From: a virus
IMG/VR virus record: IMGVR_UViG_3300006753_000035
Location: 1 to 31,515 of that record
Reading direction: 5' to 3' (one strand)
DNA length: 31,515 nucleotides
In this document: piece after piece, positions 4,771 through 28,680 of the stretch
Position numbering within the stretch: position 1 is the first letter of the stretch
Layout of the letters: each line of letters starts with the position of its first letter
Notes under the pieces: generated by a model
What the model saw: the letters and a program-made list of their open reading frames with translations, nothing else
What the model was told of the DNA's origin: nothing
Databases searched by the model: none
Made by a program: the position numbers and the translations under genes

Positions 4771-4771
4771 G

Positions 4772-9446: not shown

Positions 9447-9447
9447 T

Positions 9448-9720
9448 ATGCCTGATACACAACTTACTGTGCCGGTGGTAAACGAAGCGGTTAAGAAACC
9501 GGGATATAAATCCACCGAGTTTTATATGAGTATGCTGGCTGTGATCGTTGGGGCCGTTGCTTCCTCTGGAATACTGGAGGGAAGTGACGGTTTGACCAAG
9601 GTTGTTGGCCTTGTTATGGCCGCTTTGGTAGCCCTCGGCTACACAGGCTCTCGTTTGACCCTCAAGAAACTGGACACAGCTAATGGCAACGGCACTACTG
9701 GCAATACTGGCAATTCTTAA
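9448..9720 (+). CDS. Holin-like two-helix membrane protein
   Basis: This 90-residue protein has two predicted membrane segments, at about 26-46 (FYMSMLAVIVGAVASSGIL) and 50-68 (LTKVVGLVMAALVALGYTG), joined by a short EGSDG loop. A Lys-containing cytoplasmic-type stretch precedes the first helix and a hydrophilic Gly/Asn/Thr tail closes the protein. This layout, including the KSTEFYMS entry and the ALGYTGSR exit, fits small holins of marine and other phages that form the lysis hole. The two spanin-like frames immediately following strengthen the lysis reading. The last codons, which encode GNGTTGNTGNS, overlap the next gene. Confidence 0.8.
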   Translation: MPDTQLTVPVVNEAVKKPGYKSTEFYMSMLAVIVGAVASSGILEGSDGLTKVVGLVMAALVALGYTGSRLTLKKLDTANGNGTTGNTGNS

Positions 9721-9865
9721 AGAAATACTTAGTTTACTATGGAATGAGGCTGCTAAACCTGTTAAAGCAACGGTTGCTCCTGCTGTCCCTGCTAGTCTTA
9801 GGGCTGCTTGGAACAAACGGATGCTTGACAAATGGAAAAAGAGTAGTCTTCATTCCGACGAGTGA
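9683..9865 (+). CDS. Putative small inner-membrane spanin-like protein (overlaps both neighbours)
   Basis: A 60-residue frame starts inside the holin gene and overlaps the lipoprotein gene that follows. It has one N-terminal hydrophobic helix (ATALLAILAILKEILSLLW), a Pro/Ala/Val linker, and a basic amphipathic end (AAWNKRMLDKWKKSS). One membrane helix plus a short periplasmic part, nested against a lipoprotein frame, is the layout of Rz/Rz1-type spanin pairs. It is shorter than classical i-spanins and lacks a long coiled coil, and no clear ribosome site is seen, so the function is an inference. Confidence 0.5.
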   Translation: MATALLAILAILKEILSLLWNEAAKPVKATVAPAVPASLRAAWNKRMLDKWKKSSLHSDE

Positions 9866-10010
9866 CGCCTTGGTTCGTTTAGGGCCAGACGTTACAGGCC
9901 GAGTCTATTACTGGGACGGCAAAGAGTGGGAACTCTCTAGAAACAGAGTCACTCTGCCTGAAGGGTGGTTGGCTGGGCCATTAGATTTGCCCGAAGGGGA
10001 CGCTGAATAG
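9744..10010 (+). CDS. Putative outer-membrane lipoprotein, o-spanin-like
   Basis: The 88-residue product has a basic start (MRLLNLLKQR), a long leucine-rich hydrophobic core and a lipobox-like LLGTNGC with the lipidated Cys at position 27. The predicted mature part of 62 residues is globular rather than proline-rich: RVVFIPTSDALVRLGPDVTG, VYYWDGKEWELSRN, VTLPEGWLAG. It lies in a +1-type overlap with the putative inner-membrane partner and follows a holin, which suggests the outer-membrane half of a spanin. The mature sequence is unlike the classical Rz1, so a different surface role is possible. Start choice rests on the signal sequence, since no strong ribosome site is visible. Confidence 0.68.
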   Translation: MRLLNLLKQRLLLLSLLVLGLLGTNGCLTNGKRVVFIPTSDALVRLGPDVTGRVYYWDGKEWELSRNRVTLPEGWLAGPLDLPEGDAE

Positions 10011-11371: not shown

Positions 11372-12223
11372 ATGGCTTACGGGGTGCTTACATCGAAGCT
11401 GGAGGCAGTAAATCAAATGCTGTCTACTATAGGGCAGGCACGGGTTGCCTCTCTCCAAACTTCAGGCGAAGCTTACGAGGCACAGAAGGTTTTAGAGGAA
11501 GTTGATAAGGCAGTCCAAACGGAGGGGTGGCACTTCAACCGATTCTTTGACGAACCCCTCTCTCTAGGTACAGCTACGATTGGCTGCATCATTTCAGAGC
11601 AACCCTCAACTGCGGTCAACACGGTGACGCTTGGCGGCAGCACCGCCGCTCAACATTTTTTAGAAAAGGGAGAAGCAATCGCAATCGACAGCATTGCTAA
11701 TACAGTAGAGACCGTTAACAGCGATGGTATTTCCTTTGTGGCAGGGACGGCTGCAAGCGGTCAAGTTCTTAGGTATAGCCAACGTATAGCTGCGCCTACC
11801 AATGCGCTACAGCTTGACACTAGCCTGAGCAGCTACTCAAGTCTTGATCCTATTGTTCGTGGAAGATTTCTTTATGATAAATATGATGGGACATACCAAT
11901 TTACTACTGACCTTAAGGTTAACATTGTTTACCAAGTAGCCTTTGAACAGGGTGATGAGGGTGAGCCAGCGTTGCCAGAACATGCTCGTCGATTCATTAC
12001 GATGCGAGCCTCAAGGATTTTTGCACAGAGATATGTTGGTGATCCTCAGTTGTTACAGTTTGTAATCCAAGAAGAGAGAGATGCGTGGACATCGTTTGTG
12101 CAGATCGAAGGCGAAACTGCCGACCACAGCATATTCGGTTCGGCTCTAGCCTACTATACGGTGGAGCGTAACACGACATCGAACGTCAATCCAGTAGGGT
12201 CTCTTTATAGGGTTGTAAAATAA
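11372..12223 (+). CDS. Tail tubular protein A (adaptor), T7 gp11-like
   Basis: The start ATG at 11372 gives MAYGVLTSKLEAVNQMLSTI, which aligns with the T7 gp11 beginning (AVNDILASIG). Frame extension upstream into the terminator is not supported. The T7-like core continues with LEEVDKAVQTEGWHFN, then FTTDLKVNIVYQVAFEQGDE, LPEHARRFITMRASRIFAQR and FVIQEERDAW. At 283 residues it is longer than T7 gp11 (196), with about 70 extra residues between GWHFN and IAAPTNALQLDTS. The protein forms the ring joining portal to nozzle. No normal ribosome site is seen near the ATG, since the U-tract of the terminator lies directly upstream, so expression may be low by design. Confidence 0.9.
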   Translation: MAYGVLTSKLEAVNQMLSTIGQARVASLQTSGEAYEAQKVLEEVDKAVQTEGWHFNRFFDEPLSLGTATIGCIISEQPSTAVNTVTLGGSTAAQHFLEKGEAIAIDSIANTVETVNSDGISFVAGTAASGQVLRYSQRIAAPTNALQLDTSLSSYSSLDPIVRGRFLYDKYDGTYQFTTDLKVNIVYQVAFEQGDEGEPALPEHARRFITMRASRIFAQRYVGDPQLLQFVIQEERDAWTSFVQIEGETADHSIFGSALAYYTVERNTTSNVNPVGSLYRVVK

Positions 12224-15200
12224 TGCCTGTCACCAAGTATGCAGTTACTAATTTGTCACAGGGAGCCAGCCAGCAGGCAGAGTCCCAGCGATTTCCTTCT
12301 CAGGCTACGGAACAAATCAATGGTTACTCGTCCCACATCAAGGGACTAACCAAGCGTCCTCCCATAGAACATCTAGGGGCAATCGACAAGATTACCACCT
12401 CGACTCTCTCTCCCGCTCAGGACTCCTTCTTCCACCTAACGAGCAGAGACAGGCAAGAGCAGTATGCCGTAGTGATAAACAAGGGTGGGCTAAGTATTAC
12501 CACCACGAGCATTGATACCACCACATCATTACCTTTTGGGGAAACCGGTATCATAGGGAGTGCCATTGTATATCAAAACTCTGACACAGAGGATAACACT
12601 CCCTTCTTTACTGCAGGTCAAGTAGTTCAACTGTATGCAACGGAAGGTAGAAGCTCGCTCGTCAAGGGGATTACACTAGGTAAGACTTATTATGTTCATA
12701 GTGAAGGACAGCAGGGCCAAGTTGGAGACAACTACTGGAGATACATCCGCTTAAAGGAGACCAAGGATGCCTCTGTCGCTACAGCCCACCCTGATGTTGG
12801 TGGTTACATAACATTTGGACAGATAGAACTCACCACCCCCGCAATGGGTACGTCTACTGTTAGTGGTGATGAATATAAGGCTGGCTTGTTGGTGGAGTCG
12901 GTGCGAAGAGCCAACGGGTCTTGGATTGACGGTGTGATAACTGTGCGGTTTGGGAGCACCACCAGCGCACAGGGTAACGATTATACAGTCGGCGATCAGA
13001 TTAGGTTCAGGGACTTAAACACAGAGACCTACATAGGAAGCCAGCAAATTCCAGTATTTGCTAAGTATGTCCTGACTAGACCTTGGGAAGACTACCTTCT
13101 CACGCAGCCTGCAAAGACAATGGGCAACACAGCCCTGCGTACCGCTGAGAAAGAGAATAAGTTTTGGCTGATGCAGGGGGGACAGTTCAGGTCATCCGAT
13201 TTCGACGGCTATCGAATAGATGGGGATCAACTAAGGCACATTGATTCTTATAAGGAGAAGTATGCGAAGGGCCATACGCAACATGATTTCATTGGGTGGT
13301 CTGGTGCAGTTGACTCTGCCGATGCTACCGCACAGGTGACGCTTGATGGGGATGAGATTGAGTGGGTTACCGTAGGTTCTAATACTCTGGACTTTCGTAC
13401 TCTGTTCTCTGAGGGCCAGCTTATCAAACTGGGTAGTCATGTTAACGCACCCCGTAGTATTGTAACAAAGGTGGAAGAGCATAAGCTCACCCTTGCAGAA
13501 GCCCCTTATACTGCTGGCGGCGATTACACAGACAGCGATGGTACTAACTTCAACCTGTACTACTGGTCTACCCTATCCACCAAAAAGGTGCGCCTGTTCC
13601 ATGTGTCGGACTACCGACCTACTACAGTTGGAACAGCAACAACCACTTCGACAGCCCATGTAGGGAACGCTCCAGAAAGTTCAATCTTTTATGTGGTGAA
13701 AGAAGGGATTGGCCCTTATGTATTTGATTTGAAAACCGGGGATGAGTACCCCATCGAAGTAGATAATTCGCGGGGAAATCCTTATGATTATTTATCTCAC
13801 ACTACAAACCCAAAGAAAGATTTTGAAGCGGTAACCATAGGGGACACTACCTTCATCGCAAACAAGACTGTCTCTGTGAAACCGGGAGGGTTCGCTCCAA
13901 ACCGAGAGAGGTACGAGGCGTTCATTACTGTTCGACAGGCTGACTATGGTAAATACTACAGGATAAATGTTGGAGACGAGGCTGTTAACCACTCGTTGAA
14001 TCCCGGCGTTACTTTTGAAGAGGAAACAGATGAGACACCTGCCTCAAAAACTAAAGGATTTCTCTATGGAGCAGACGGGGCAAACGCAAACTCTACGTCT
14101 CGGAAAGTTATATGTATTCGGCGAAGGACAGCGGGAGACTTTAACAACTGGTCACTACGGTTTACTCAAAACTGGCACTTCTTTTGGGATCCTGCTGGCG
14201 GCTGGGGTACGACAGAAAATGTTCCTCAAGGTGTAACGGCTGGTAGGTCTACTCCACCACAGGGGGAGGGGCGCACCTTTGCTACCACCTCCATGAGTAT
14301 TGAGAGAGGCGCAGCGATGTACACCACCACTACCGAGTGGGGCCATGTCGTTGCAGATTGGACTCCAGAAGATCAGGACACGGAAACTGTTGCGGTTGCA
14401 TACGACAATGTGCGGCAGGAGATAACTATTTGGGCTAACTTTTATTGGGCCTATGAATACAGGTATGGTAGCCAGACTACCACAACGGTTAAACAGGTTC
14501 TTAATGCCCTTAACAACTCTGGGTTTAACGATCAATGGGAAGCACTACTCTGTGATGACCAAGGTCGAGTAGGCCCAACGACAGACTTAGATGGTAACAC
14601 GGTCGAGGCAGACACAGGTTTTCAAAGCAGTACATTGTCAGAAGAAGATTGGACGTTTACCGATTGTATCTTAGGGAATGACTTTCAGGATAAGGACAAG
14701 GACAACGTTGATGATACCTATAAGGTAGCCGGTAACAGATATACAATAGGGCGCGACTCTGAGACCCGTCAACTCAGGGACATGACGTTCTGGATAAATA
14801 CAGGTGGTAGCTGGTATGACAATTATGATCCTGAAGACTTTGAGGGGGATGTCTTTGAGGGGGGTGGTTTAGAACTCAGCGAGGTTCAGACCGTTAAAGA
14901 CCCCGGTCTTCTGATGCCAAAGACCCCTCCCGGTCGCTTATTCAGAACTGCTGCCTACCATAAGTTTGGTGGGGGCGCAGGAACAGTACCAAAGTTTGAT
15001 CTCACCGATACGGTTGGAACGGGCCAAGGCAGTAATAAGATTGTGGTTTATAATGGTCAGTATTTCTACAAGACTCCTAAGTGGACAGGAGCGACAGGTC
15101 AAGAAGCAATAGGTACACACCGAGTTGCAGAGATGTTGGCCAGCAATGGTCTCATTACCACAGGGAAGTGGTGGGTCACCCCCGCTAAAAAACTGCAGGG

Positions 15201-17190
15201 AGCAGGAGGAAAGTCGGTCAGTCACTATGCTGAGTCAACTATTCGCACGGCATCCAAGGAGGAACTGATTGGGTTAACTCATACTCGTTCTGACATGGAC
15301 GATCAGGCTGACATGGATGGCCCCGGTACTTCAGGTCATTACTATGATGCTACTAAAACTAAACACTTAGCTGAGTGGCAGGGAGATGTCTTAGGAGGAG
15401 GAGACCGCGAGTGGAGCGTTGAACAGTTTGGTTCAACCATTTCCATTAGTAATCCAGAAGGCACATTTTTTAAGATTGGTGTTGAGGATGATTTAGGAGG
15501 GGACGGGTTAAATCTTACCTACTATGAAGTTGAGGAGAGTGCCAAGCTCCCTGAGATATGTCGGCACGGTCATGTGGTTAAGGTAGTGGGAGACGCTAGG
15601 GAGCAGGCTGACGATTACTACCTGAAGTTTGAGGGAGATGAGGCTGACCCCCATCGCTTACAACATGGACGTTGGGTAGAAACCTCTGGGTTCGGTGTGG
15701 TATCTGACATCAGGCATTCAAGCATGCCTGTGATGTTGCAGCGATTTTTCAGAGCCAACAAACCAGTTTTCCGTCTCTCTCATGGGTTATGGAAAGATCG
15801 AAAGGCTGGGGATGACTTCTCGAATCCCATGCCGTCGATTGTTGGCCAAACACTCAACCAGATTTTTCTCTATAAAAATCGCTTGGGTTTCTTGGCGGGA
15901 CAAAATGTAGTCTTAAGTGAATCAGGAGAATACTTTAATCTCTTCAGAACAACGGCTGCTTCGTTCCTTGATACGTCTCCCATTGATGTACGCACCTCAT
16001 CAGAGAATGTTTCCAAGCTGCACTATGCTGTGCCTTATGCAGACCGCCTTGTTTTGTTTGCTGATCAGGGTCAGTATTCTCTGCAGGGTGATCAATTCCT
16101 GTCTCCTAAGACAGTCAGCATTACCCCTACCACCAGCTTTTCTAACTTTTCATTAGAGGCTCCTCCCATTCTAACTGGCAACTCGGTGTTCTATCCGTTT
16201 GAGCGGACAGGGTTTTCAGGTGTAGGAGAATACTTTCTGTCTAAAGATCAGTTAGATAGCCTAGACGCCAAGGACTTGACCGCACACATCCCGAAGTATA
16301 TCGAAGGCAACGTCACCAAGCTGGCCTCGTGTTCTTCGGAGGATGTGCTTGCGGTTTTAACAGATGCTACAGGTAAGGCTAACCTGTACATCTACAAATA
16401 TTACATTGCTGAGAACAGGCAGAAGGTTCAGTCTGCATGGTTCACATATCAAACAGGGGATGCGAACTCACAGATTCTCAACATGGAGTTTATAAGCAAC
16501 AAACTCTACCTCATCGTTAAGAGAGGTGACTTTACTTTCTTAGAGTCACTAACCTTTGAGGATTCCCAGCTAGATGGAAGCAGAGGCTTTCAGGTTCTCT
16601 TGGATCGCCGCCTCACAATGGCTTCAGGGGATTCACGGGTTGTCTATGCTGTAGGGAACACAACGATTACTCTCCCTTATTCTCCTACTACTAACTTCAC
16701 GGTGATGCCTCCTAGCAATGTCCCGGTGAAACCTACAACTGTTACTACAAGCACAGCGGTTTTCAATGGGATCGACCTCACAGGAAAGGAGTTAATCATG
16801 GGCGAACCTTATACGTTTGAGTACACCCTGTCTAAACCGTACCTCCGTAAGGCGGGGACTGACAGCAAGGGGCCACTCTACGGGGGCCGTCACCAGTTGT
16901 TCCGAGGGGAACTAGAGTTTACAAACGCTCGTACCTTCACGGTGGATGTCACGCACCTACCACAGGATGTAACGCAGAGTAGTACACACTCCTTTGGTGG
17001 GGTGGAGTTGGGATACGCCACGGCAATTGAAGGAGTATCCACGCTGTCGCAGGGTTCATATAGATTTGGGATCATGGGGAAGAGTGACCGCGTTAACATT
17101 AAAATTACTAATGACACACCCTATCCGTCAGACTTTTTAAGTATAGACTATGAAGGAAGAGCATATTCTAGGGCTACAAGGTGGGGCTAG
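12223..17190 (+). CDS. Tail tubular protein B (nozzle), T7 gp12-like, greatly enlarged
   Basis: The ends and core are clearly T7 gp12: residues 1-57 include GASQQAESQRFP, INGYSS and GLTKRPP. Residues 521-550 hold YLSHTTNPKKDFEAVTIGDT. From 1117 onward come HVVKVVGDAREQADDYYLKF, MPSIVGQTLNQIFLYKNRLG, FLAGQNVVLSESGEYFN, PIDVRTSSENVSKLHYAVP and a C-terminal SYRFGIMG close. T7 gp12 is 794 residues; this one is 1655. The excess sits in two insertions, about residues 90-490 and 560-1110. The insertions are beta-rich, and the second contains DKDKDNVDD near 823, resembling a calcium-binding loop. The protein forms the hexameric tail nozzle that gates DNA. The start overlaps the gp11 stop (TAATG). Confidence 0.93.
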   Translation: MPVTKYAVTNLSQGASQQAESQRFPSQATEQINGYSSHIKGLTKRPPIEHLGAIDKITTSTLSPAQDSFFHLTSRDRQEQYAVVINKGGLSITTTSIDTTTSLPFGETGIIGSAIVYQNSDTEDNTPFFTAGQVVQLYATEGRSSLVKGITLGKTYYVHSEGQQGQVGDNYWRYIRLKETKDASVATAHPDVGGYITFGQIELTTPAMGTSTVSGDEYKAGLLVESVRRANGSWIDGVITVRFGSTTSAQGNDYTVGDQIRFRDLNTETYIGSQQIPVFAKYVLTRPWEDYLLTQPAKTMGNTALRTAEKENKFWLMQGGQFRSSDFDGYRIDGDQLRHIDSYKEKYAKGHTQHDFIGWSGAVDSADATAQVTLDGDEIEWVTVGSNTLDFRTLFSEGQLIKLGSHVNAPRSIVTKVEEHKLTLAEAPYTAGGDYTDSDGTNFNLYYWSTLSTKKVRLFHVSDYRPTTVGTATTTSTAHVGNAPESSIFYVVKEGIGPYVFDLKTGDEYPIEVDNSRGNPYDYLSHTTNPKKDFEAVTIGDTTFIANKTVSVKPGGFAPNRERYEAFITVRQADYGKYYRINVGDEAVNHSLNPGVTFEEETDETPASKTKGFLYGADGANANSTSRKVICIRRRTAGDFNNWSLRFTQNWHFFWDPAGGWGTTENVPQGVTAGRSTPPQGEGRTFATTSMSIERGAAMYTTTTEWGHVVADWTPEDQDTETVAVAYDNVRQEITIWANFYWAYEYRYGSQTTTTVKQVLNALNNSGFNDQWEALLCDDQGRVGPTTDLDGNTVEADTGFQSSTLSEEDWTFTDCILGNDFQDKDKDNVDDTYKVAGNRYTIGRDSETRQLRDMTFWINTGGSWYDNYDPEDFEGDVFEGGGLELSEVQTVKDPGLLMPKTPPGRLFRTAAYHKFGGGAGTVPKFDLTDTVGTGQGSNKIVVYNGQYFYKTPKWTGATGQEAIGTHRVAEMLASNGLITTGKWWVTPAKKLQGAGGKSVSHYAESTIRTASKEELIGLTHTRSDMDDQADMDGPGTSGHYYDATKTKHLAEWQGDVLGGGDREWSVEQFGSTISISNPEGTFFKIGVEDDLGGDGLNLTYYEVEESAKLPEICRHGHVVKVVGDAREQADDYYLKFEGDEADPHRLQHGRWVETSGFGVVSDIRHSSMPVMLQRFFRANKPVFRLSHGLWKDRKAGDDFSNPMPSIVGQTLNQIFLYKNRLGFLAGQNVVLSESGEYFNLFRTTAASFLDTSPIDVRTSSENVSKLHYAVPYADRLVLFADQGQYSLQGDQFLSPKTVSITPTTSFSNFSLEAPPILTGNSVFYPFERTGFSGVGEYFLSKDQLDSLDAKDLTAHIPKYIEGNVTKLASCSSEDVLAVLTDATGKANLYIYKYYIAENRQKVQSAWFTYQTGDANSQILNMEFISNKLYLIVKRGDFTFLESLTFEDSQLDGSRGFQVLLDRRLTMASGDSRVVYAVGNTTITLPYSPTTNFTVMPPSNVPVKPTTVTTSTAVFNGIDLTGKELIMGEPYTFEYTLSKPYLRKAGTDSKGPLYGGRHQLFRGELEFTNARTFTVDVTHLPQDVTQSSTHSFGGVELGYATAIEGVSTLSQGSYRFGIMGKSDRVNIKITNDTPYPSDFLSIDYEGRAYSRATRWG

Positions 17191-17668
17191 ATGGGACTAC
17201 GGAGCAGCTTATGTTAGGCGAAGTACCATATCGGATGCCAGATCAATCGGGGAGAACCTACGGGCTGCTGACAGGGAAGAACTCTCTGCGCTCACCCTCA
17301 AGCCTCCTGTATCAATCATTGCAGATGGAATCAACTCCGCAGTCGCCTGCTACACCCTCTGCCTCAGAGACGGTGACCGTCCCTGTGCAATTTTTGGTGT
17401 CAACAACTCTGGAAATCCCGAAAGCGGCATTGTCTGGTGCTTGGGAACTGATGATCTATTCGGAATTGCTGTCAAATTTCTGCGTAACTCCAAAGAATGG
17501 TTGAATGAATTACACTCAAAACACAGACTTTTGTTTAATGTCGTTGACGAAAGACAGACAGTCTATATTAAATGGCTCAAGTGGCTTGGCTTTGAGTTTA
17601 TCGAAGAGTTCGATAAATATGGCATAGAAGGCAGACGGTTTAGATTATTCACAAGGTATCATGTTTGA
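17150..17668 (+). CDS. Internal virion protein, T7 gp13-like (GNAT-like fold)
   Basis: This 172-residue product overlaps the nozzle gene by 41 nt. Its C-terminal two-thirds align with T7 gp13 (138 residues): PCAIFGVNNSGNPESGIVWC, LGTDDLFGIAVKFLRN, YIKWLKWLGFEFIEEFDKYG and a final RRFRLFTRYH. The YVRRSTISDARSIGENLRAA start is acetyltransferase-like, consistent with the fold of this family. In T7 gp13 is needed for assembly of functional virions but is not part of the final particle. The first 20 residues (MKEEHILGLQGGARWDYGAA) may not be translated, because AAGGAAG at 17153-17159 looks like a ribosome site for a later start, though no standard codon fits it. Confidence 0.82.
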   Translation: MKEEHILGLQGGARWDYGAAYVRRSTISDARSIGENLRAADREELSALTLKPPVSIIADGINSAVACYTLCLRDGDRPCAIFGVNNSGNPESGIVWCLGTDDLFGIAVKFLRNSKEWLNELHSKHRLLFNVVDERQTVYIKWLKWLGFEFIEEFDKYGIEGRRFRLFTRYHV

Positions 17669-18272
17669 AATTATCCCCATCTTAGCCTGCGAACCCACTA
17701 CGATTGCCATGATGGTGATCGCTGCGGCGTCTTCAGCAGTCCAATACATGGGTGCAAAGCAGCAGGCTGAAGCTACCTTGGAACATCAGAAAGCTGTGGG
17801 GGCTGACATGCAGAGGCAGGAGGGGCTGCAACAAACCATGCTGGCTTCTAATGTGAGAGACAAGCTCGATGCCTCGGCCAGACAGAGGGAAGCATTTCAG
17901 ATCAAAGCTACCACAGTAGCTTCTAAACGGGCTGCTTCTGCTAATGAATCAGGAGCTACGGGAGCCAGCCTAGAGATGGCAGCACAGGAATTTGATGCGT
18001 ATGACGCTAGGTGGATGGAGGCTCAGTATCTCAGGGAAGACACAGCGTTAGCCAAGTGGGATCGAGACAAAGCCTTACTGGCTTCTCAGGTACGGGGTCG
18101 TTTGATTTCCAACTACTCTCCCATAGCCCAGCCATCTGAGTTGGCCTACGGGCTGGAAGCGGCTGGTGGAATGTTGTCTGCTTATGACAGCTACAAGACT
18201 AGGCAAGGCTTTAAGCCCAAGGATAAAGTCTTTGAGGCGAGTCCAGATATTAGCGGAGAGATGGACATCTAA
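17661..18272 (+). CDS. Internal virion (ejection) protein, T7 gp14-like
   Basis: At 203 residues it matches T7 gp14 in size (196) and position. After a short hydrophobic start (AMMVIAAASSAVQYMGA) it is a long Ala/Gln-rich helical protein: KQQAEATLEHQKAVGADMQR, DKLDASARQREAFQIKATTV and a Ser/Gly hinge NESGATGASLEM. T7 gp14 leaves the capsid first and forms the outer-membrane part of the DNA channel. The hydrophobic N-terminus here would suit membrane insertion. AAGG lies six bases before the ATG. The gene overlaps gp13 by eight bases and the following gene by one (TAATG). Confidence 0.82.
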   Translation: MFEIIPILACEPTTIAMMVIAAASSAVQYMGAKQQAEATLEHQKAVGADMQRQEGLQQTMLASNVRDKLDASARQREAFQIKATTVASKRAASANESGATGASLEMAAQEFDAYDARWMEAQYLREDTALAKWDRDKALLASQVRGRLISNYSPIAQPSELAYGLEAAGGMLSAYDSYKTRQGFKPKDKVFEASPDISGEMDI

Positions 18273-21200
18273 TGGCAGCTAAAGCAAAACGGTGGAACCC
18301 CACGCCTTCGGAAGTCCTAGGGGCTATCCCCACGGTTGACCCCGGCAACGCTGGGCCAGCTTCCATTACGGGACGCGCCTACAAACCCTCTGGTGGGACA
18401 GGTCTCCAACAACTGGGGACAGCCCTAAAGAGATTCAACCCCATCCTTGAGAAGTACATGGTAGGCCGGGAGAACCGGGGGATGGCTGAGTCTTCACAGT
18501 ACCTACGCGAGATGGAACAGATGGTTTCTGATAATGCGTATGGGTTTAAGACAGGCTTAAAAGCAGCAGGGTATTCTCAATGGAGGAACCCTCATGTCTA
18601 TCGGAATCAGATCATGAACGTAGCCGGGATCACGGCTTACAAGGATGCTGATTTTCTCCGCACAGATGCAGAGTTTCTAGCTGCAATCGAAGCAGCGAAG
18701 AAGGGTGATGATTTTGCTGGGCAGGCTGAACTCATAGCTGAAGAACACCTAGCTAAGAACCGTCAGCGTCAACCTACGAACCCTAAAGAAGGAGGCTACT
18801 GGGATGCAGGGTATGCTCCCAAGTGGATGGAAGCTAGGCAACGCTTACTCCAACCTTTCCTGAACGAGAAAGTCAAAGCGGATCGCACGGAAGTCCTAGA
18901 GAATTTCTATGAGAATGGTCGCAACCATTTGTTGGATGTCATTAAGATTAACCAACCGAATTACAAAGACCCAGTAACCGGCAAGACCAGACAGCCGGGA
19001 GACGAGATCAACATTAAGCCCTTGCGAGAGTACATCAGCAAACAATGGGCAAGCTATCCAGATGGTGATCACTCTTTCAATCAGGCGGTATTTGAAAAGA
19101 TCATCCAACCCGTCTTCTTAGACTTAGTTGAAGACCCGGACAACGAGTTGTTGATTGAGTCACTCTATGAGCGAGTCATGAAGATGACCCGTGAAACCAC
19201 TAACCCAGACGGCACGAAGAGTCGCCACAGTATGTTCAAGCGGTGGAAGGATGGGGTGTCTGGCGGTAGTTCCGGTTCATTTAATCTTGATGAAGATTCA
19301 TTCTGGGAAAAGGTCATGGATGTTGAGGCCGAGGCTCACAACAAACAATTCCTGCGCGAACAAAAGGAAGTCAATAGATTAGCTACAGGAGTTAACCTTG
19401 TTCTCAAGGACAGGGCCAACCCTGATTGGGGTATACATGACGTTCCTTTCCCATATGACAGCAAGGGAATATCAACGGTTGCCAACACTCTTGCTGCGAA
19501 TGAAGACTTTTTAACCAAGTATATTAGAAAAGGAGGAGACCTCCACACGCAATTAGTCTTTAGGGAAATCGTGCAAGACTTAACCCGTGCTATTCGTAAG
19601 GCTGATCTAACGGCCTTAGTGACTGAGCGAGAGTATGGAAAAGAAATTGACGCAAAAATTCAAACGTCATTAAACGCATACATAAAGAATACTGATCTGT
19701 TCCCCCAAATCCAGAAGATGTTCAGGAAGGCAATCGGCGGCAGCACAACTTTAGAAGATGCCAAGAAGAGAGCCACCGCTCTGCTCAACCCTGAATCTTT
19801 GGTCGCTGGTTTTATCGCGGAGAACCCCACCTTCAAACCCGAAGCGGCTGGCCTCATGATGGCCCTGTCTCGTAGTGTTGATTCTCTCGGAGACAACTCA
19901 GCCCTTAGCAAAAGTAATGATCTTATCCAAATAGCCTCCAATGTAGCACGAGGAAAAGACACAGGATCAGACCCCTATGAGCTTATAGCAGAGCTTACGG
20001 ATGCTCAGAACGAAACCTTCACAGATGAGGATGATGAGGCATTAGGCCGTGCCATTAAGATGGTGGAGAAGCATACCCAAATTATTGGGCAATGGGAATC
20101 CTTGAACAGGGACGAGTCTTCCATCTTATCTTCAGTAATTGACGGAGGAGCCAACGATGTTCTTAGGTCTGTTATCTCTCCTCATTTCTATTTCAAACTC
20201 AAGTCACCTGATGAGCTTGGGGAGCAATCGGGGGTTGATCTAGGTAAACCATCCAACTTGGAGAAGGAGGCAGCGCACTCGGCTTTCGAGGAGATGCAGG
20301 ATGACATGAAAGCAATCTCACGCAAGCTCCTGCATAGATATCATGCGGCTCATCCAGACCCCACAGAGCGGGACAACCATTGGAGGGACTCAGGACAGAA
20401 AGAGGTAACAGATGAAATCGTTAGGCAGATGCGTGAGCGGGTTAATTTCTATGCGAGGACATACACAGACCACTTAAGGAGAAGCCAACAAGGGCGAGCG
20501 CAGACTGAGACAAAGCAGATGAAGACCCTGCTTGAGGCAAGTGCGGCTGAAGCAAAGCAAGTTGATGACATAGCAGTACAGATGGAGGAGTCGCTGCAGA
20601 CGTTAGGCAATATTGATAACAAGCAGCTTTTTGAAGATAACCAAACTGCCACAGGTGCGGCGTCTGCGGCTCATTTTTGGACAGGCCCATCTGGGAACAA
20701 GATAGCTGAAGCCCTGAGACAGCGGCAGAAGCAGCGTAAGATTCAGTATGACCTAGGTGTTACGGAACTCGCAAGGGATTTGCAGAACTTGAAGAAGGCA
20801 CGAGAGGCGGGTGCAACCGATCAGATAGATATAGAACTAGAAAGGGTTAGGCAGAAGCAGAATTACATCAAGAACATGAGGCTTCAAGGGGGTAACCTTG
20901 ATTGGCAGGATTGGATTGATGATAAGGGTGCGCTTAAACAGGGTTCAGACTTAAACTTTAATGTCATGAACGAGGACGGTGAAGAGATGTCCGTTCCCTT
21001 TAACATTGTTGGAGACAACCTCAACCCCCAATACCACCTCCTCTTTAACAAGTGGGATGAGTTTGATGACATCACCGTTGAGATCAACGCTGCTGAGAAA
21101 GACCCAGAGTATGAGTTCTCGACCAAGGCAAAGGGATTTTTCAAGTTGTGGGGAGTGATGACGGGTGATGATATCAATCCCCACGGGAAAGACCTTAGTG

Positions 21201-22738
21201 ATCCCGAAGTCGCTCGTAAGCTTAAGAAGGCCCACGGCAATTATGACCGAAAAATGCGAGGCCAGATGGTCATGTTCATGTCTCGCAAGAGGGGTGACCT
21301 CCCCCAAGCTGCTGTCGAGCATATCCAAAACAATATCGTAGCAGATTTTTTGGGTGGGGACAGTAACATGTTCCAAGATGTTCACTACACAGACCGGGAG
21401 AAAGTCCACCATGAGAGGTTTCTCGTCCACAACCAGAAAGTTCTAAATGGTGAGGTTAACATCGAGGATGGGTTAGATTGGGATGGGTATTTAGAAAAGT
21501 ATGCGGTGGTCACGAACGGGATGATTCCGACCGGCCCTTACACAACTCGTCCCAACCCTGAGACAGGGTTTGCTTCCGATCATATAATTCAGAGTGGCAG
21601 AGAGAGGGATGGGAGTCCTATTATTGGTTACGGGAGGGCGTTCATAGACCCAGAGATGCAAGACCAAGTAGCGTCACCCCTCTGGACTTTGCAGGGCTTT
21701 GAAGAAATGGGTGATGTCGAGAGGACTCAAGAGGCTATTGACATGCATGGTCTGGATGATTGGGCTATACCTCGCAAGGACAAGATAGGCAGGCAGTATT
21801 TCTTAGCACAAGAGCTTGCGCTCGCTGACATGGGGTATAAGGAGACCACTAACCTCCCTGACTCTGGATGGACTTGGCCGCGCCTCGCAGGCCATGCGTT
21901 TGGAGGCTCAGGAATATCTCTCAATGTTAAAGAGTTCAAGCAGAAGACTGAACACTACAGGCAAGTCCTTAGTGGTGGCCCAGAGCAAAACTCAGCGAGG
22001 GCTAGAGCGTTCAACCTCCTCCTTGCCCACTCAAACTTAACCAAAGACAAGTATCTTAGTAAGACGAATATGATGGGTCTTTCGCCTCTTTCTATTCCAC
22101 ACAAGCCAGAAGAGTCTGAGTTTCCTCCGATGATGCCTGAGTCGATTGATCATAGTGCAGAGCGTAGTGAGCGTGAGCAGCGGAAGGCAGGAAGCTTCGG
22201 AGCAACGACGAAGGAGGAGCAAGAGAAGAAGGATAAGGAGAAGATGGTCTCGGACATAGTAAAACGTAACGCCTTCGATCTGAGGGATGACCCCAATCCG
22301 CGAAAAGATAATAGAGAAACGCCCAAGCCGGTCATACCTAAGACCCCGCCGCTACCTCCCGGCATGTCAAAGCTCCAAGCGGAACATGGGCCTCAAGTTA
22401 AGCCTGTCCCCAAGAGGAAGCCTAAACCTAAACCAAAGCCAACTAAGGAACCAATGGAGGAGGCGGCGGTGAAAATGATTCAAGACATACGGAGCAGAAA
22501 TGCGTTTGATCTTAAAGAACCTAAGAAGGTTCCGGGTCAAGATGATCCAAATCCGAAGAAAAGCGTTCTAAGTAAATCAGGGAAAGCGGCTTTGCTGCGG
22601 AAGCTAAAAGACCCGAAGAGAAAAACAGCAGCCGAGCGTATCCTAGAGACGCTTAAGCCAACTCCCCCAGAAGCCGCAAGGATTATCGAGGAGATGACAA
22701 AAAGGAATCCCTTTAACCTGAAGAAACCTAAGAAATAA
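18272..22738 (+). CDS. Internal virion (ejection) protein at the gp15 position, enlarged
   Basis: The 1488-residue protein occupies the gp15 slot between the gp14-like and gp16-like genes; T7 gp15 is 747 residues. The N-terminus (LQQLGTALKRFNPILEKYMV, then helical segments rich in charged residues) fits a gp15-type core-stack protein that forms a periplasmic tube during ejection. No enzymatic motif is visible. The middle, about 700-890, is Gln/Glu-rich and coiled-coil-like (LRQRQKQRKIQYDLGVTELA). The last 170 residues are disordered, Lys/Pro-rich (KRKPKPKPKPTKEP), and carry three copies of a 13-residue motif. The assignment rests on order, size class and helical character more than on residue identity. 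The ribosome site GGAGAG lies in the preceding gene. Confidence 0.8.
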   Translation: MAAKAKRWNPTPSEVLGAIPTVDPGNAGPASITGRAYKPSGGTGLQQLGTALKRFNPILEKYMVGRENRGMAESSQYLREMEQMVSDNAYGFKTGLKAAGYSQWRNPHVYRNQIMNVAGITAYKDADFLRTDAEFLAAIEAAKKGDDFAGQAELIAEEHLAKNRQRQPTNPKEGGYWDAGYAPKWMEARQRLLQPFLNEKVKADRTEVLENFYENGRNHLLDVIKINQPNYKDPVTGKTRQPGDEINIKPLREYISKQWASYPDGDHSFNQAVFEKIIQPVFLDLVEDPDNELLIESLYERVMKMTRETTNPDGTKSRHSMFKRWKDGVSGGSSGSFNLDEDSFWEKVMDVEAEAHNKQFLREQKEVNRLATGVNLVLKDRANPDWGIHDVPFPYDSKGISTVANTLAANEDFLTKYIRKGGDLHTQLVFREIVQDLTRAIRKADLTALVTEREYGKEIDAKIQTSLNAYIKNTDLFPQIQKMFRKAIGGSTTLEDAKKRATALLNPESLVAGFIAENPTFKPEAAGLMMALSRSVDSLGDNSALSKSNDLIQIASNVARGKDTGSDPYELIAELTDAQNETFTDEDDEALGRAIKMVEKHTQIIGQWESLNRDESSILSSVIDGGANDVLRSVISPHFYFKLKSPDELGEQSGVDLGKPSNLEKEAAHSAFEEMQDDMKAISRKLLHRYHAAHPDPTERDNHWRDSGQKEVTDEIVRQMRERVNFYARTYTDHLRRSQQGRAQTETKQMKTLLEASAAEAKQVDDIAVQMEESLQTLGNIDNKQLFEDNQTATGAASAAHFWTGPSGNKIAEALRQRQKQRKIQYDLGVTELARDLQNLKKAREAGATDQIDIELERVRQKQNYIKNMRLQGGNLDWQDWIDDKGALKQGSDLNFNVMNEDGEEMSVPFNIVGDNLNPQYHLLFNKWDEFDDITVEINAAEKDPEYEFSTKAKGFFKLWGVMTGDDINPHGKDLSDPEVARKLKKAHGNYDRKMRGQMVMFMSRKRGDLPQAAVEHIQNNIVADFLGGDSNMFQDVHYTDREKVHHERFLVHNQKVLNGEVNIEDGLDWDGYLEKYAVVTNGMIPTGPYTTRPNPETGFASDHIIQSGRERDGSPIIGYGRAFIDPEMQDQVASPLWTLQGFEEMGDVERTQEAIDMHGLDDWAIPRKDKIGRQYFLAQELALADMGYKETTNLPDSGWTWPRLAGHAFGGSGISLNVKEFKQKTEHYRQVLSGGPEQNSARARAFNLLLAHSNLTKDKYLSKTNMMGLSPLSIPHKPEESEFPPMMPESIDHSAERSEREQRKAGSFGATTKEEQEKKDKEKMVSDIVKRNAFDLRDDPNPRKDNRETPKPVIPKTPPLPPGMSKLQAEHGPQVKPVPKRKPKPKPKPTKEPMEEAAVKMIQDIRSRNAFDLKEPKKVPGQDDPNPKKSVLSKSGKAALLRKLKDPKRKTAAERILETLKPTPPEAARIIEEMTKRNPFNLKKPKK
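22244..22720 (+). repeat. Three dispersed copies of a 13-residue motif in the gp15-like tail
   Basis: The copies are MVSDIVKRNAFDL (residues 1325-1337), MIQDIRSRNAFDL (1402-1414) and IIEEMTKRNPFNL (1471-1483), spaced by 77 and 69 residues in a Pro/Lys-rich disordered tail. The consensus is an amphipathic turn followed by RN[AP]F[DN]L. The first two copies are also followed by DDPNP and basic residues. The DNA of the copies has diverged (GTAACGCCTTCGATCTG against GAAATGCGTTTGATCTT), so the amino acids are what is conserved. Confidence 0.85.
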
Positions 22739-22740
22739 AG

Positions 22741-25700
22741 ATGCCTGTAGGAGAAACTAAAATAGGTGGTGCTACCAAAAGCGAACTGGATCAATACCAA
22801 GGTCAGATGGACAGTTGGTATACTCGGTCAGATGGGCAGGCTAACTATAAGTCGAGGCAGATGGCAGAACGTCCTTGGTATATAAACACATTCCAAGGAG
22901 GCACTAAGGGTTTGGCCAAAACAGTTGAAGCTGGGGCCAACCTTATCCCCGACTTGATGGGTGCAGATCAGCGGTTCTTTACCTTTTCTGATTACATCCC
23001 AGACAATCCCGAAAGCACTAACTACCAACTGTCAAACATAGGAGTGCATTTGGTTAGCTCCTATCTATTGAGTCATAGGGCTATAAAAGCGTCTGGCTTT
23101 GGCGCAGAGAAACTCAGCAAAAACATTGATTGGAGCCCGTCCTTAAAAAAGAGATGGGGTAAGAAGCCCAAGTCAGACAAGGAAATCTCTGCGATGGACG
23201 ATAAGACTCGTTCTGTTTATATCGGTGATTTGGCTAAAAATCTTCGTGAGCAAGACAGGATGAAGCGGTCTAGAGGTTTAACTCCTAGGAAGCTTTACGA
23301 GATAGGCAAGCAGGGAATCGGTACAGGTGTTGTTGCGGAGGGAGTGCTTTGGAGAGGACAGGATGAGGAGTTAATCATCGACAGTCTTCGTAGTTTTTTT
23401 GATGAGTATAGCGAATTAGAGGGCATCGTTGAGGAGGCTATTGAAGACAACCCCAACTGGATGAATGAGCCTGCCAACAAGCTGGGAGAGAAGATCACCT
23501 TCAGTTGGAACGCATTTCATGGGAACGCACTTGGCAGGCTGAAGTTTGCAGGAGAGGGTGCTGTCTTTGGACTCTTCTTTAACTACTTTGCAGCCCTGTT
23601 AAAGGTTGGTGCTGTCGCAGCAGGACGCACAGGGTCACGAGGACTCAGCAGGATTCTACATGGTGGAGATCAGGCAGCTAAAAAAGGAGCAGACGCAACT
23701 GAAGCAGCGGCAAAGGGTGGGGATGGGCCTCTCTCAGCGAAAGAACGGAAGAAGCTAGAGTCTGAGGACTTAGCTTTTGGCGGTGACCAAGATACTGTTA
23801 CTCCTATTAACGAAGCTGAAGCTGCCGATGAGTTAGCAGAAGCCCACTCGAAAGCCTTAGACGGCTCTGAAGCTGAAGAGGCAGCCAAGCCTAAAGAGCT
23901 AAAAGATATAGATGATGAGTCCTTAGCTCCCAGAGAGTGGGACGAAGACCTACACGGTGAGGTTGAGAGTGAATTAGTAGGTGTAAAGGAAGACCTTTAT
24001 AAGAGAACGCCTGTCGGACAGAACGAGGAAATCCCCGTTGACATGCTGGATGGCCCTCCTCCTGATGGTTCTATTGTTGTTAATTTTGAAGCAGCCCTGT
24101 CTGCCGCTGCAAGGCTTCAGGATAAACTCCTGACTCTGGACGGTATCAAGGCTCAAGCAATGTTAAGGAACCTTGGGAGGAAGTCACCAAAGATTGGAGA
24201 CAACCTAACAGCTAGAGACCTTCTGGGGTCAGGGCCGTTAGATGATATGACGGTCAAGCAGGCCGAAGATTTTCTAGGGCAACTCGATCTTGAGAAGGAG
24301 CAGATAGCTGCGCTGCTTCATCTACGGAAACTCATCAATGTATTTGAGTTTACAGATGAGGAACTAACCCTTCTTGCGAGACGGGCAGAAGGTTCTAGCG
24401 CTGGCTGGCCGGAAGTTGCACGGGATGTTGACGTTACTGGCCCAGAGTTTAAGGAGCTTGCTCCAGACTTAGTGGACAAGGAGGTGGGTGAGGGGGCTTT
24501 GGAAGGTGGTCTCATGGAGACCATTCATCTCAATTCTCCCCTGACTCGCTTCCTAGATCAGGTTCAATGGTTGGTTCAAGGTGGGAGGAAAAACCCTGAA
24601 GGGATGAAGAAAGCCATAGTGGATGAACTATGGAGAATGTTTGATGATGCACTTGGGGATGTCCCTGATGGGAAGGCGGTAGATAGACTTACTCAGAAAG
24701 CCAGAATCCAAGAAATCGCAGACAACATAACTAAGAAGGGGAGCAAGCTCCGAGACATGGAGCAACTGAGCGGGACAACTGATGTTGGTCTGATGAGACA
24801 CGCCTCCGACATGGGCTTGTCCGAAGAAGAAGCCACAAGGTTTATCGAGTCAACGCGCACCACCTCGTTCGACGAGCTTCCTAATGAAACTGTTAGGAAA
24901 GACCCTGTGTCAGGCGAAGAGCTAGACGCTTGGGAACTGATGGAAAAGATGGATGCTGAACGCATCGCTGAGGGCATACCACCTTGGTCTAAAAATGATC
25001 CAGAATGGTCAGCCGAGTTTTCAAAGAGGAGGGGGTATTCTCCTGAACAAATAAAAGCTACTGCAGATCATATCTCACAGATTGGGGAACTTCTTCAGAA
25101 GGGGCATAGGATAGCAGACCTTCAATACTTTGAGGGAAACATTACGGGTCAGTTAGATAACTTACAGACGCTGGCAACTACCTATGACGGTAAGGTAGTT
25201 CTTAGGCGAAGTTTAGCCCAAGATAATTGGAATCGCTGGCAACCCGATGGCTCAAATCCCATACTTCAGGAACACATCCCCAAAGATGTCTTCTCTGACT
25301 ACCAAGATTTTGAACGTTTTATTATAGAGCGAGAGAAAGCTTACTTAAGGAACCCTATGATGCGTGGTGAGGATATTGTCAACTACCACCGCAGGGTTCA
25401 GCGACACGCCATCAACGCTTCTAAGCGTAAGGGTATTGGAGATTTCTATAAGTATGAGTTTGATCCCAAAGGCCCAGCGGGTTTAAGGCTAACAGAGAGC
25501 GAGCAGCTTCGGATTCTATTTGGAGAGGGGAATGATGTAGCTGGTAAAAAGGTTATTGAGATACTGAAGAACGCCGGGAAAGCCCGTGGACGTAGCGTGA
25601 CTGACGCCATGAACGAGGCGGCGAAGATCATTAACATTGATAACACAATGACTGACATTGGTTCCAAGTACCTTACGGGGAGGATCATGTCGTTCTTCAT

Positions 25701-28680
25701 ACACAGCCTCCGTCAGGGGTTCTCCCACCTTCCTGATGATGCTCGTGCCTTTAAGAAAGCTGATATTGATACTCTCGCTGATGCCCTTGGCTTTGTTAGA
25801 GACCCTCATCGAAGAGGGCCAGCCGCCATACTGGAAGAAGATGTCCTGAACGGTATAGATGATATCGCAGATGCCAATGCTATCGGCAGGGATGCAATGG
25901 CTGAACGTATCCGTAGTGGTCGCGGTGATTTCAGAAAGCTTTATGGAGAGTTAGCTCCCTCCACCAGCCTTGACAAATCCCTTTCACAGGACGTTAAGGT
26001 TCTCAAAGAAGCGTACATTCGGACTGTCGCTTATAAGATGGATGCCGTCATGCAAGTGAAGCGTCTTGAGCAGCTAGCAGACGATATTGTCAAGCTGTCT
26101 GACGATCAATGGGCGGCTAATAAAGGTATGCAGAAGGCATACCACGACGAAATGCAGCGGATCGCCCACAAGGTATCTAACCTTCAGAAACTAGGGACTG
26201 CAGGCGGTAGGCTGCTCCGCGCTCAGAATGATATGCACAAGGCTGTCTTCTCAGACATGGAGAAGCACCTTGATCAGGTTAAGTTTGGTAACCCCGCAAC
26301 TGTTAAGAAACACGCTCATAGGCTTCATGCTATTATGCAGGCCAATAAGCATAGCGCAGTTGATTCTGCTATTGCCTCGAAGGAGTTCTTATCGAACAGC
26401 ATTAGTGGTATAGACATTCATAATGAGTATTGGCTTAACTCCATCCTTAGCGGAACCAAGACTCAAATGGTTAACTTCATCTCCACAGGTATCCACCTCT
26501 ACTACAAACCTGTAGAAGGTATGGTTGGAGCCTTGATGCGGAGAGACCCCAAGCAAGCCAAGGTTATGGTAGATAGCCTTGTTCAAACAGCCATGATCAA
26601 CGCTTCCGTAATGAAAGTGCCGGGGTCATTAGGTTGGAACTGGGCGAAACGAGCGGGAGGATTGATTGACAACGCAGGCTACCACGCTGGCCGATCAAAG
26701 ATTTTTAAGAGAGGGCAGGAAGGAACAGGCCCGATGGCTCAAGCCACAGGTGCGGTAGCTGGAGCGAGGAAATCCTTCCGTGCAGGCGAAGGAACCCTAA
26801 GCCAACACTCTGACCTGTTTGATGTAAAACCACCTAACGCCATCTCAGGTCGGTTGCTGGGTGAGCAGGCAGATGAGTCCTTCTTTGGGGCTAGTATGGG
26901 AGCCAAGAAGACGTTGGATTATGTAGGAAACCTCATTCGTATGCCCATGCGGTTGATGATTACGAGTGATGAACTGTTCAAGCAGATTGCCTTTCGCTCT
27001 ACTGCCATGTCGAAACTAGCGCAAGACGCTTTGGAGCATGGCCTGACAAGTTCAGATGATGTCGCAAAGTATATCGCTGATAATTTCAAAGGATTGATAC
27101 GCAAAAATGGCAAAAGGCACACAGGCAAGGCCATTCAAGATGAAGCTTACCGTGAGCATGGTAAGATTATGAGTCGTTTCAATGACAAGGCTACTGATGA
27201 GTTCCCTGAGCAATACCGTAACAGGAATGACTTTGTTGAAGATTATGTGGCTCACCATTATGATCCCAATAAGGGCGTCTTATCAGAACGAGCAATGGAT
27301 TGGGCTGAAGACGTTACCTACACCAGACGGCTGGATAAAGACGCTGTATTCCTCAAGAGTCTAGGTAAGGGAGGGAAGGGACACTCAATGCTGCAGGATG
27401 TACAGGACATGGTACACCGCCATCCCTACCTACGCCTTGTGATGCCCTTCATCAAGACACCTGTGAATATCCTGAAGTTCCCTCTTCAGCGTATGAACAT
27501 TCCCTTTATCACCAACCAGAAGGGGCAACTACTGGGTAAGGAAGTACAATGGCTGAAGAACATGCACACAAGGTATGCCGCCGATATGGCCAGCGGTGAC
27601 CCCCAGAGAATGGCCGAAGCGGCAGGCCGCGTCTGGGCTGGGAGGTTTTATTGGGTGAGTAGTATTTCGTTGGCAAGCTCAGGAGTCATCACAGGTGGTG
27701 GCCCCTCTAATCCAAGGGAGCGAAACAATCTGATCGCCACAGGATGGAGACCCTACTCTGTTCGCATGGGGGATAAGTATATCTCCTATAGCAGGCTCGA
27801 TCCCTTCTCGACAGTCTTGGGGTTAGCCGCCGATGTCTATGAAAAGTTCGCTGAACAGGGACAGAATGGTGATTTAGAGGAGGATGGGTTCCAAGCGGTC
27901 ATGCTCGCTGGGGCTTTCTCCCTCTCCAACAACATAGCCGACAAGAGTTATCTGGCAGGCATCAACAACGTTCTGCAGGCTTTCCTAGAACCTGAGACTA
28001 AGTTGAAGACTCTCCTTAAGAAACAAACTGGGGCTTACATCCCTAAGATTGTCTCACAATGGACGCCACTCACAGATGATCATTACATGAAGAAGACCTA
28101 CAGCCTGCTTGAAGGCTTAATGGTCAGAACCCCCGGTGCTGCTCGACACATTGAGCCTATGAGGAACTACCTCGGTGACCCCGTAGAAGCCATGTATCAG
28201 CCTACGGTGTGGGCCGCTGGATTGAACCCCTTCCTGATTAGTAAGGCTAAGAAAGACCCAATCTTGGATGAAATTGGCCATCTGGATTACGGTTTCGGTG
28301 CGCCTACCGCCAGAATCAAAGGGTCTCGTCACCTTGACATGAGGAAATTCTTTGATGAAAACGGCAGGACAGCCTTTGATCGTTTCCAAGAAGCCATTGG
28401 TCAGGAAAAAATAAATGGACGCACACTCAGAAGTTCGTTAGAACGGTTGTTTAACAGTCCCGGGTATGAACGGGCTGGCACAATGGCTGAGAGCAATGAG
28501 CTTTTTCATCAAGGAACATTTCGTGACCCTCGCATTAAAGCGGTGAAATCTATTATGGCAAAGTACCGTAACAGAGCTAAAAACCGTGTGCTGAAGGAAT
28601 ATCCAAACCTAAAGAGTGCCGTCAGGACTTTCAACTGGCAGACTGATACTCAAATGGAAAAACTATTAGGAGAGTTTTAA
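22741..28680 (+). CDS. Giant internal virion protein at the gp16 position
   Basis: At 1979 residues this is the largest gene in the window (T7 gp16 is 1318). Its place after gp15 and before the fibre, and its size, make it the gp16 equivalent that forms the inner-membrane end of the ejection channel. T7 gp16 begins with a lytic transglycosylase domain. Here residues 1-120 show no such Glu-Ser or GLMQ-type motif. Visible parts are a hydrophobic stretch at about 268-296 (FGLFFNYFAALLKVGAVAAG), an acidic region at about 340-420, and a C-terminal block NSILSGTKTQMVNF (about 1232), RMPMRLMITSDELFKQIAFR (about 1400) and LRLVMPFIKTPVNILKFP (about 1564). This block recalls large polyvalent and virion proteins of other phages. 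A second hydrophobic stretch is near 1636-1655. Confidence 0.82.
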   Translation: MPVGETKIGGATKSELDQYQGQMDSWYTRSDGQANYKSRQMAERPWYINTFQGGTKGLAKTVEAGANLIPDLMGADQRFFTFSDYIPDNPESTNYQLSNIGVHLVSSYLLSHRAIKASGFGAEKLSKNIDWSPSLKKRWGKKPKSDKEISAMDDKTRSVYIGDLAKNLREQDRMKRSRGLTPRKLYEIGKQGIGTGVVAEGVLWRGQDEELIIDSLRSFFDEYSELEGIVEEAIEDNPNWMNEPANKLGEKITFSWNAFHGNALGRLKFAGEGAVFGLFFNYFAALLKVGAVAAGRTGSRGLSRILHGGDQAAKKGADATEAAAKGGDGPLSAKERKKLESEDLAFGGDQDTVTPINEAEAADELAEAHSKALDGSEAEEAAKPKELKDIDDESLAPREWDEDLHGEVESELVGVKEDLYKRTPVGQNEEIPVDMLDGPPPDGSIVVNFEAALSAAARLQDKLLTLDGIKAQAMLRNLGRKSPKIGDNLTARDLLGSGPLDDMTVKQAEDFLGQLDLEKEQIAALLHLRKLINVFEFTDEELTLLARRAEGSSAGWPEVARDVDVTGPEFKELAPDLVDKEVGEGALEGGLMETIHLNSPLTRFLDQVQWLVQGGRKNPEGMKKAIVDELWRMFDDALGDVPDGKAVDRLTQKARIQEIADNITKKGSKLRDMEQLSGTTDVGLMRHASDMGLSEEEATRFIESTRTTSFDELPNETVRKDPVSGEELDAWELMEKMDAERIAEGIPPWSKNDPEWSAEFSKRRGYSPEQIKATADHISQIGELLQKGHRIADLQYFEGNITGQLDNLQTLATTYDGKVVLRRSLAQDNWNRWQPDGSNPILQEHIPKDVFSDYQDFERFIIEREKAYLRNPMMRGEDIVNYHRRVQRHAINASKRKGIGDFYKYEFDPKGPAGLRLTESEQLRILFGEGNDVAGKKVIEILKNAGKARGRSVTDAMNEAAKIINIDNTMTDIGSKYLTGRIMSFFIHSLRQGFSHLPDDARAFKKADIDTLADALGFVRDPHRRGPAAILEEDVLNGIDDIADANAIGRDAMAERIRSGRGDFRKLYGELAPSTSLDKSLSQDVKVLKEAYIRTVAYKMDAVMQVKRLEQLADDIVKLSDDQWAANKGMQKAYHDEMQRIAHKVSNLQKLGTAGGRLLRAQNDMHKAVFSDMEKHLDQVKFGNPATVKKHAHRLHAIMQANKHSAVDSAIASKEFLSNSISGIDIHNEYWLNSILSGTKTQMVNFISTGIHLYYKPVEGMVGALMRRDPKQAKVMVDSLVQTAMINASVMKVPGSLGWNWAKRAGGLIDNAGYHAGRSKIFKRGQEGTGPMAQATGAVAGARKSFRAGEGTLSQHSDLFDVKPPNAISGRLLGEQADESFFGASMGAKKTLDYVGNLIRMPMRLMITSDELFKQIAFRSTAMSKLAQDALEHGLTSSDDVAKYIADNFKGLIRKNGKRHTGKAIQDEAYREHGKIMSRFNDKATDEFPEQYRNRNDFVEDYVAHHYDPNKGVLSERAMDWAEDVTYTRRLDKDAVFLKSLGKGGKGHSMLQDVQDMVHRHPYLRLVMPFIKTPVNILKFPLQRMNIPFITNQKGQLLGKEVQWLKNMHTRYAADMASGDPQRMAEAAGRVWAGRFYWVSSISLASSGVITGGGPSNPRERNNLIATGWRPYSVRMGDKYISYSRLDPFSTVLGLAADVYEKFAEQGQNGDLEEDGFQAVMLAGAFSLSNNIADKSYLAGINNVLQAFLEPETKLKTLLKKQTGAYIPKIVSQWTPLTDDHYMKKTYSLLEGLMVRTPGAARHIEPMRNYLGDPVEAMYQPTVWAAGLNPFLISKAKKDPILDEIGHLDYGFGAPTARIKGSRHLDMRKFFDENGRTAFDRFQEAIGQEKINGRTLRSSLERLFNSPGYERAGTMAESNELFHQGTFRDPRIKAVKSIMAKYRNRAKNRVLKEYPNLKSAVRTFNWQTDTQMEKLLGEF

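Follow-up and report, generated by a model that had tools for sequence, protein, structure and literature searches.

A putative ejection protein at the gp16 position of a marine T7-like phage, without the T7 transglycosylase and with a large variable insert

The gp16 protein of bacteriophage T7 begins with a lytic transglycosylase domain (SLT), which is described as needed only under certain conditions, namely where the peptidoglycan is highly cross-linked, in the same account that lists the gp16-like proteins of P22 and Sf6 as being without SLT (PMC8954989). In phage phiM1, structural comparison is reported to have located a lysozyme-like region (residues 718–903) in the OEP protein and an endolysin-like region (residues 268–528) in the TEP protein, so wall-enzyme domains can occupy other places in gp15/gp16-type proteins (PMC11440229). 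Among the marine T7-like phages, the P-SSP7 record describes its own gp15 and gp16 as 'assigned by synteny and size', and the expectation that such proteins contain the T7 domain therefore rests on gene position only.

The window analysed here is the whole 31,515-nucleotide stretch of IMG/VR record IMGVR_UViG_3300006753_000035. It is a 31.5 kb virus fragment, so the lack of a recognised wall enzyme within it says nothing about the whole genome. By synteny its genes run gp12-gp13-gp14-gp15-gp16-fibre genes. The protein under study is encoded by a single intact ORF of 1979 codons, from ATG to stop, and occupies the T7-type position after gp14/gp15 and before the tail fibre genes: a nozzle gene, a gp13-like gene, a gp14-like gene and a gp15-position gene lie upstream, and tail-fibre-like genes lie downstream.

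12223..17190, + strand: gp12 nozzle whose N-terminal part carries a large insertion, with no wall-enzyme family (PF25675, E 4.2e-188)
17661..18272, + strand: gp14-like ejection protein (PF24072 T7_gp14, E 1.3e-14)
18272..22738, + strand: gp15-position protein, 1488 aa, no cysteine, without a Pfam family or significant PHROG
22741..28680, + strand: putative internal virion (ejection) protein at the gp16 position, 1979 aa (ORF and translation; phrog_6651)
22741..23820, + strand: N-terminal module, residues 1–360, conserved, helical, no SLT
23821..25290, + strand: variable slot or insert, residues 361–850 (column occupancy and slot lengths)
25291..26334, + strand: core segment, residues 851–1198, conserved in the near group, all-helical in the AF2 model
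26335..28677, + strand: C-terminal hub, residues 1199–1979 (HMM match in 32 of 38 gp16-position proteins)
27397..27984, + strand: best phrog_6651 stretch, residues 1553–1748

The nozzle is itself twice the T7 length; Pfam nozzle positions 1–92 and 186–793 correspond to residues 1–96 and 1039–1653, with several hundred residues inserted between them.

The initial annotation had described a recognisable C-terminal block resembling those in large virion proteins of unrelated phages. The block is real, with residues 1553–1748 matching phrog_6651 'internal virion protein' (E 2.3e-38), but its carriers are not unrelated: a tblastn search against phages matched 74 records, mostly marine T7-like and mostly from Pelagibacter, Synechococcus and Roseobacter phages. 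In the best 60 of these, between 10 and 48% of the protein was matched, always within its C-terminal half. The close relatives in IMG/VR are G001, G003 and G002 (65, 67 and 42% identity), gp16 alignments added further relatives, and the nozzle led to 80 loci. Of 38 gp16-position proteins, 32 are matched by a hub HMM made from 13 near sequences, among them those of HTVC011P, CRP-125, P-SSP7, Syn5 and ProddE; the other six give no match, so the gp16 position holds more than one family. Profile-profile alignment (hhalign) of the near group against these five named proteins gave a probability of 100% (E 7e-70). On sequence grounds, then, the C-terminal hub identifies the window protein as a member of the marine gp16-position family of the HTVC011P/P-SSP7 type. 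It has the hub, the gene order and the absence of SLT in common with the five named proteins, four of which are also free of cysteine (ProddE gp16 has three), but these are only 1230–1415 aa long and the window protein differs in its large slot insert and longer N-terminal half.

With T7 gp16 the window protein shares its gene position, its ejection-protein neighbours and a complete lack of cysteine. It differs in lacking SLT, in showing no similarity to T7 gp16 that sequence or profile comparison detects, and in being 1.5 times as long (1979/1318 = 1.50, the '50% larger' of the initial annotation). The implication that this is a true T7 gp16 homologue from which the SLT was deleted would account for the shared position, the cysteine-free composition and the mostly helical model. 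However, hhalign of T7 gp16 (6 sequences) against the near-group profile and a 31-sequence hub profile returned probabilities of only 0.3–0.8%, and the domain is generally missing from the relatives, which makes the deletion quite unlikely; remote homology to T7 gp16 may nevertheless exist.

The absence of SLT extends throughout these relatives. It was found in none of 46 gp16-position N-terminal regions (the window, trimmed to 1100 aa, and 45 others, trimmed to no more than 1000 aa), in none of 72 whole records (43 + 29, many of them fragments), and in none of the gp16 proteins of HTVC011P, CRP-125, P-SSP7, Syn5 and ProddE. As far as these sequences tell, the marine gp16-position family is normally without an N-terminal transglycosylase, and with SLT absent from relatives as well its absence is no puzzle peculiar to the window phage. 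Among the 46 members Pfam gave a GNAT match in one and a single peptidase, an M15 domain (residues 31–102) in locus L096. In that protein (L096:6953-9316) Peptidase_M15 sits N-terminally, where T7 carries SLT, and neither the N-module nor the hub is detectable by HMM. In a phage collection, 1315 records match T7 gp16. Among 40 sampled rows, the match in ICP3, a member of the T7 subfamily, starts at T7 residue 185, and the ICP3 gene (1127 aa) starts nine codons ahead of the match and so begins after the SLT; in a Kayfunavirus phage the match runs from T7 residue 159 and the N-terminus is different.

Within the 1979-residue protein, Pfam detected no SLT, lysozyme, amidase or peptidase family, confirming that the T7 transglycosylase is missing; T7 gp16, run as a positive control, gave PF01464 SLT at residues 15–127 (E 1.7e-31). 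The only whole-protein match at E≤1 was DUF1633 (E 0.044, under its cut-off), and three slices plus the insert contained nothing muralytic at E≤10. Alignments of gp16, of gp15 and of the N-terminal gp16 part, used as profiles against the PDB, gave no significant match. AF2 models, helical in both cases, were of mean pLDDT 57 and pTM 0.41 for residues 1–1200, and of mean pLDDT 71 and pTM 0.60, mostly helical, for residues 851–1979; a Foldseek search with both against the PDB and a viral library gave no match at E≤1e-3. A second look with VIA-align reached a best Z of 5.4 over 51 residues, with no wall enzyme among the matches listed, which is the level of common helical arrangements. The initial annotation named one finding as counting against it, a wall-enzyme fold within the protein, and neither Pfam, PDB profile search, AlphaFold nor Foldseek revealed one, on models that are weak: that of residues 1–1200 is poor enough for a buried enzyme fold to escape notice. 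Both phiM1 domains, moreover, were missed by Pfam at E≤0.1. Given this blindness and the weak models, the negative result is not final, and a divergent wall enzyme may be present in gp15 or gp16.

This bears on a tentative alternative, that the wall enzyme was relocated to the gp15-position or another ejection protein and is too divergent for Pfam, as in phiM1 OEP. The window gp15 is twice as long as that of T7, and Syn5 gp44, at the gp15 position (L143:6513-9020), has a weak C-terminal match to Phage_lysozyme2 (residues 695–815, E 0.013). Set against this, 49 gp15-position proteins contain no muralytic family at E≤0.1 save a lone PG_binding_2 (E 0.096), few acidic residues are conserved in gp15, and six-frame searches of the window with single-sequence queries from the Syn5, phiM1 and T7 domains or with a three-sequence lysozyme HMM found nothing, so that no counterpart of the phiM1 OEP/TEP domains was detected there.

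The remainder of the window was equally unproductive, and the statement that it holds no muramidase elsewhere stands for the families searched. PF01464, PF08291, PF00959, PF01551, PF01510 and PF18013 are absent from the whole window record and from G001, no wall enzyme was found in 14 further window ORFs scanned against all of Pfam, and no canonical one was detected in gp12, gp13, gp14, gp15, gp16 or the small window ORFs. The gp12 insertion was rejected as a candidate after scanning 20 nozzle N-terminal parts, which held no wall-enzyme family, as were the small window ORFs after the Pfam scan; weak SprT-like and Peptidase_M4 scores arose among the 14 ORFs. One ORF, 4658-5059 (133 aa; phrog_1233), carries a zinc-peptidase-like HEVIH motif, the only HExxH among the 27 listed proteins of the window. 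A further locus lies between the scaffold and capsid genes and is conserved in the relatives examined:

9135..10010, + strand: lysis-like cassette, putative in function, without a recognisable endolysin (sequence, hydrophobicity, conservation)

It encodes a signal-peptide protein, a two-TM holin-like protein, a small TM protein and an Rz1-like lipoprotein. Among the relatives, 25 records were tested for four of the six families: Phage_lysozyme occurred in three (G009, G010 and G016), with a single score above cut-off, and one record had Amidase_2. In three loci a separate phage-lysozyme gene lies between those for the capsid and gp11 (L036:5671-6348, L039:5806-6462 and L042:5836-6450); it is absent from the window and G001. 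The 43.7 kb G001 (loci L011-L013) starts inside gp12 and ends inside gp14 and looks like a permuted, near-complete genome. It contains no recognised endolysin and none of the wall-enzyme families tested, which suggests an undetected wall enzyme somewhere.

A compositional feature sets gp15 and gp16 apart. The two window proteins (18272-28680) contain no cysteine in 3467 residues, where the content of the other window proteins would predict about 31. The 53 gp15-position relatives have seven in 50,962 residues (48 have none) and the 44 gp16-position relatives five in 59,822 (40 have none), while the nozzles contain 0.51% cysteine. Cysteine is also absent from gp15 and gp16 of T7, P-SSP7, Syn5 and HTVC011P and from OEP and TEP of phiM1. 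This absence supports an ejected role for gp15 and gp16, as judged from composition, and it rules out cysteine-dependent wall hydrolases in both chains. A literature search on cysteine in ejection proteins returned no title on the subject among the matches listed.

The protein is built of the N-module (1–360), the slot (361–850), the core (851–1198) and the hub (1199–1979), and the slot supplies most of the extra size. Every near relative tested has a match to the N-module HMM, as do some distant relatives at E<0.05; Pfam finds nothing in the module. In a 17-sequence alignment the columns of residues 451–850 are 13–44% filled, compared with at least 91% for each block of 851–1900. Measured as the gap between the HMM borders of N-module and core, the slot is 490 residues long in the window; it is shorter in L004 (345), L019 (327) and L023 (192), and spans 92–140 in the eight remaining near relatives of the measured set, whose total lengths are 1523–1566 aa. 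The extra length lies mainly in the variable slot, residues about 361–850. Direct searches with residues 425–850 found no close relative, none in viral contigs, and one weak phage match (E 0.05); Pfam matches neither the window insert nor those of L004, L002 and L019. Part of L019 lines up with residues 425–850 when the family is aligned, and L004 and L002 have a different segment.

That the insert is itself a non-canonical peptidoglycan hydrolase is most improbable. In its favour, the insert is the least conserved part of the protein and matches nothing in Pfam, the PDB or phages, and the L096 protein shows an M15 peptidase at the gp16 position. But L096 has no detectable N-module or hub, the insert has no cysteine and hence no CHAP or NlpC/P60 chemistry, and eight near relatives keep the rest of the protein with a slot of minimal length, so the insert is no general entry enzyme.

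The most plausible view of the slot is of an accessory segment that can be exchanged, with no activity assigned. The gp16-position ORF of L064 (948 aa, cut by the contig end) matches the N-module HMM at 85–270 and carries an ART-PolyVal (ADP-ribosyltransferase) domain at residues about 490–700 (L064:16750-17382; E 1.9e-16), between the N-module and the cut end and so in the same place as the window slot. This single case favours an exchangeable slot without proving one. By eye, the slots of L004 and L002 (L004:11240-12091 and L002:5906-6736) seemed to hold ADP-ribosyltransferase-like inserts; Pfam did not confirm this and they stay a lead only. Such domains are described in polyvalent proteins, phage proteins that are injected and that include N4-type polymerases (PMC5512222). 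The window protein is likewise large and presumably injected, but its insert matches no effector domain, and Pfam recognises none in the protein. A search on polyvalent proteins, internal virion proteins and ADP-ribosyltransferase returned no title on T7-like gp16 proteins among the matches listed. A bolder proposal, speculative and somewhat doubtful, is that the marine gp16-position protein has a 'cargo bay' between N-module and conduit core, in which unrelated domains are swapped among close relatives and delivered into the host along with the DNA, the window insert being a new injected effector.

Overall, the earlier reading is partly supported: its observation is correct and the main explanation is ordinary. 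The window protein is probably the ejection protein at the gp16 position of a marine T7-like phage, of the HTVC011P/CRP-125/P-SSP7/Syn5/ProddE family in which SLT is normally absent, and probably needs no SLT-type enzyme of its own for the wall to be crossed. By analogy with T7 gp16, it would be packaged in the head and ejected, free of disulfides, through the tail with the DNA co-injected, its helical hub helping to form a DNA conduit across the inner membrane. The channel may use existing gaps in a thin peptidoglycan, or a divergent gp15 or gp16 domain may cut the wall. The conclusion that another enzyme has to open the wall is not justified, since the T7 SLT is itself only conditionally needed and ICP3 gp16 has none. 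An entirely enzyme-free virion, whose ejectosome threads gaps in the thin wall or borrows host hydrolases, is consistent with these cases and with P22 and Sf6; weak or divergent enzymes could still be present, and we hold this alternative only tentatively.

Placing the window protein in this family corrects an assumption, in that T7-like phages do not as a rule carry the T7 wall enzyme. It raises two testable questions: whether marine T7-like phages have any virion wall enzyme, and whether effectors are delivered by way of the variable slot in the gp16-position protein. Cysteine is nearly absent from gp15 and gp16 proteins even where no sequence similarity between them is detected, and this suggests a simple signature of ejected proteins.
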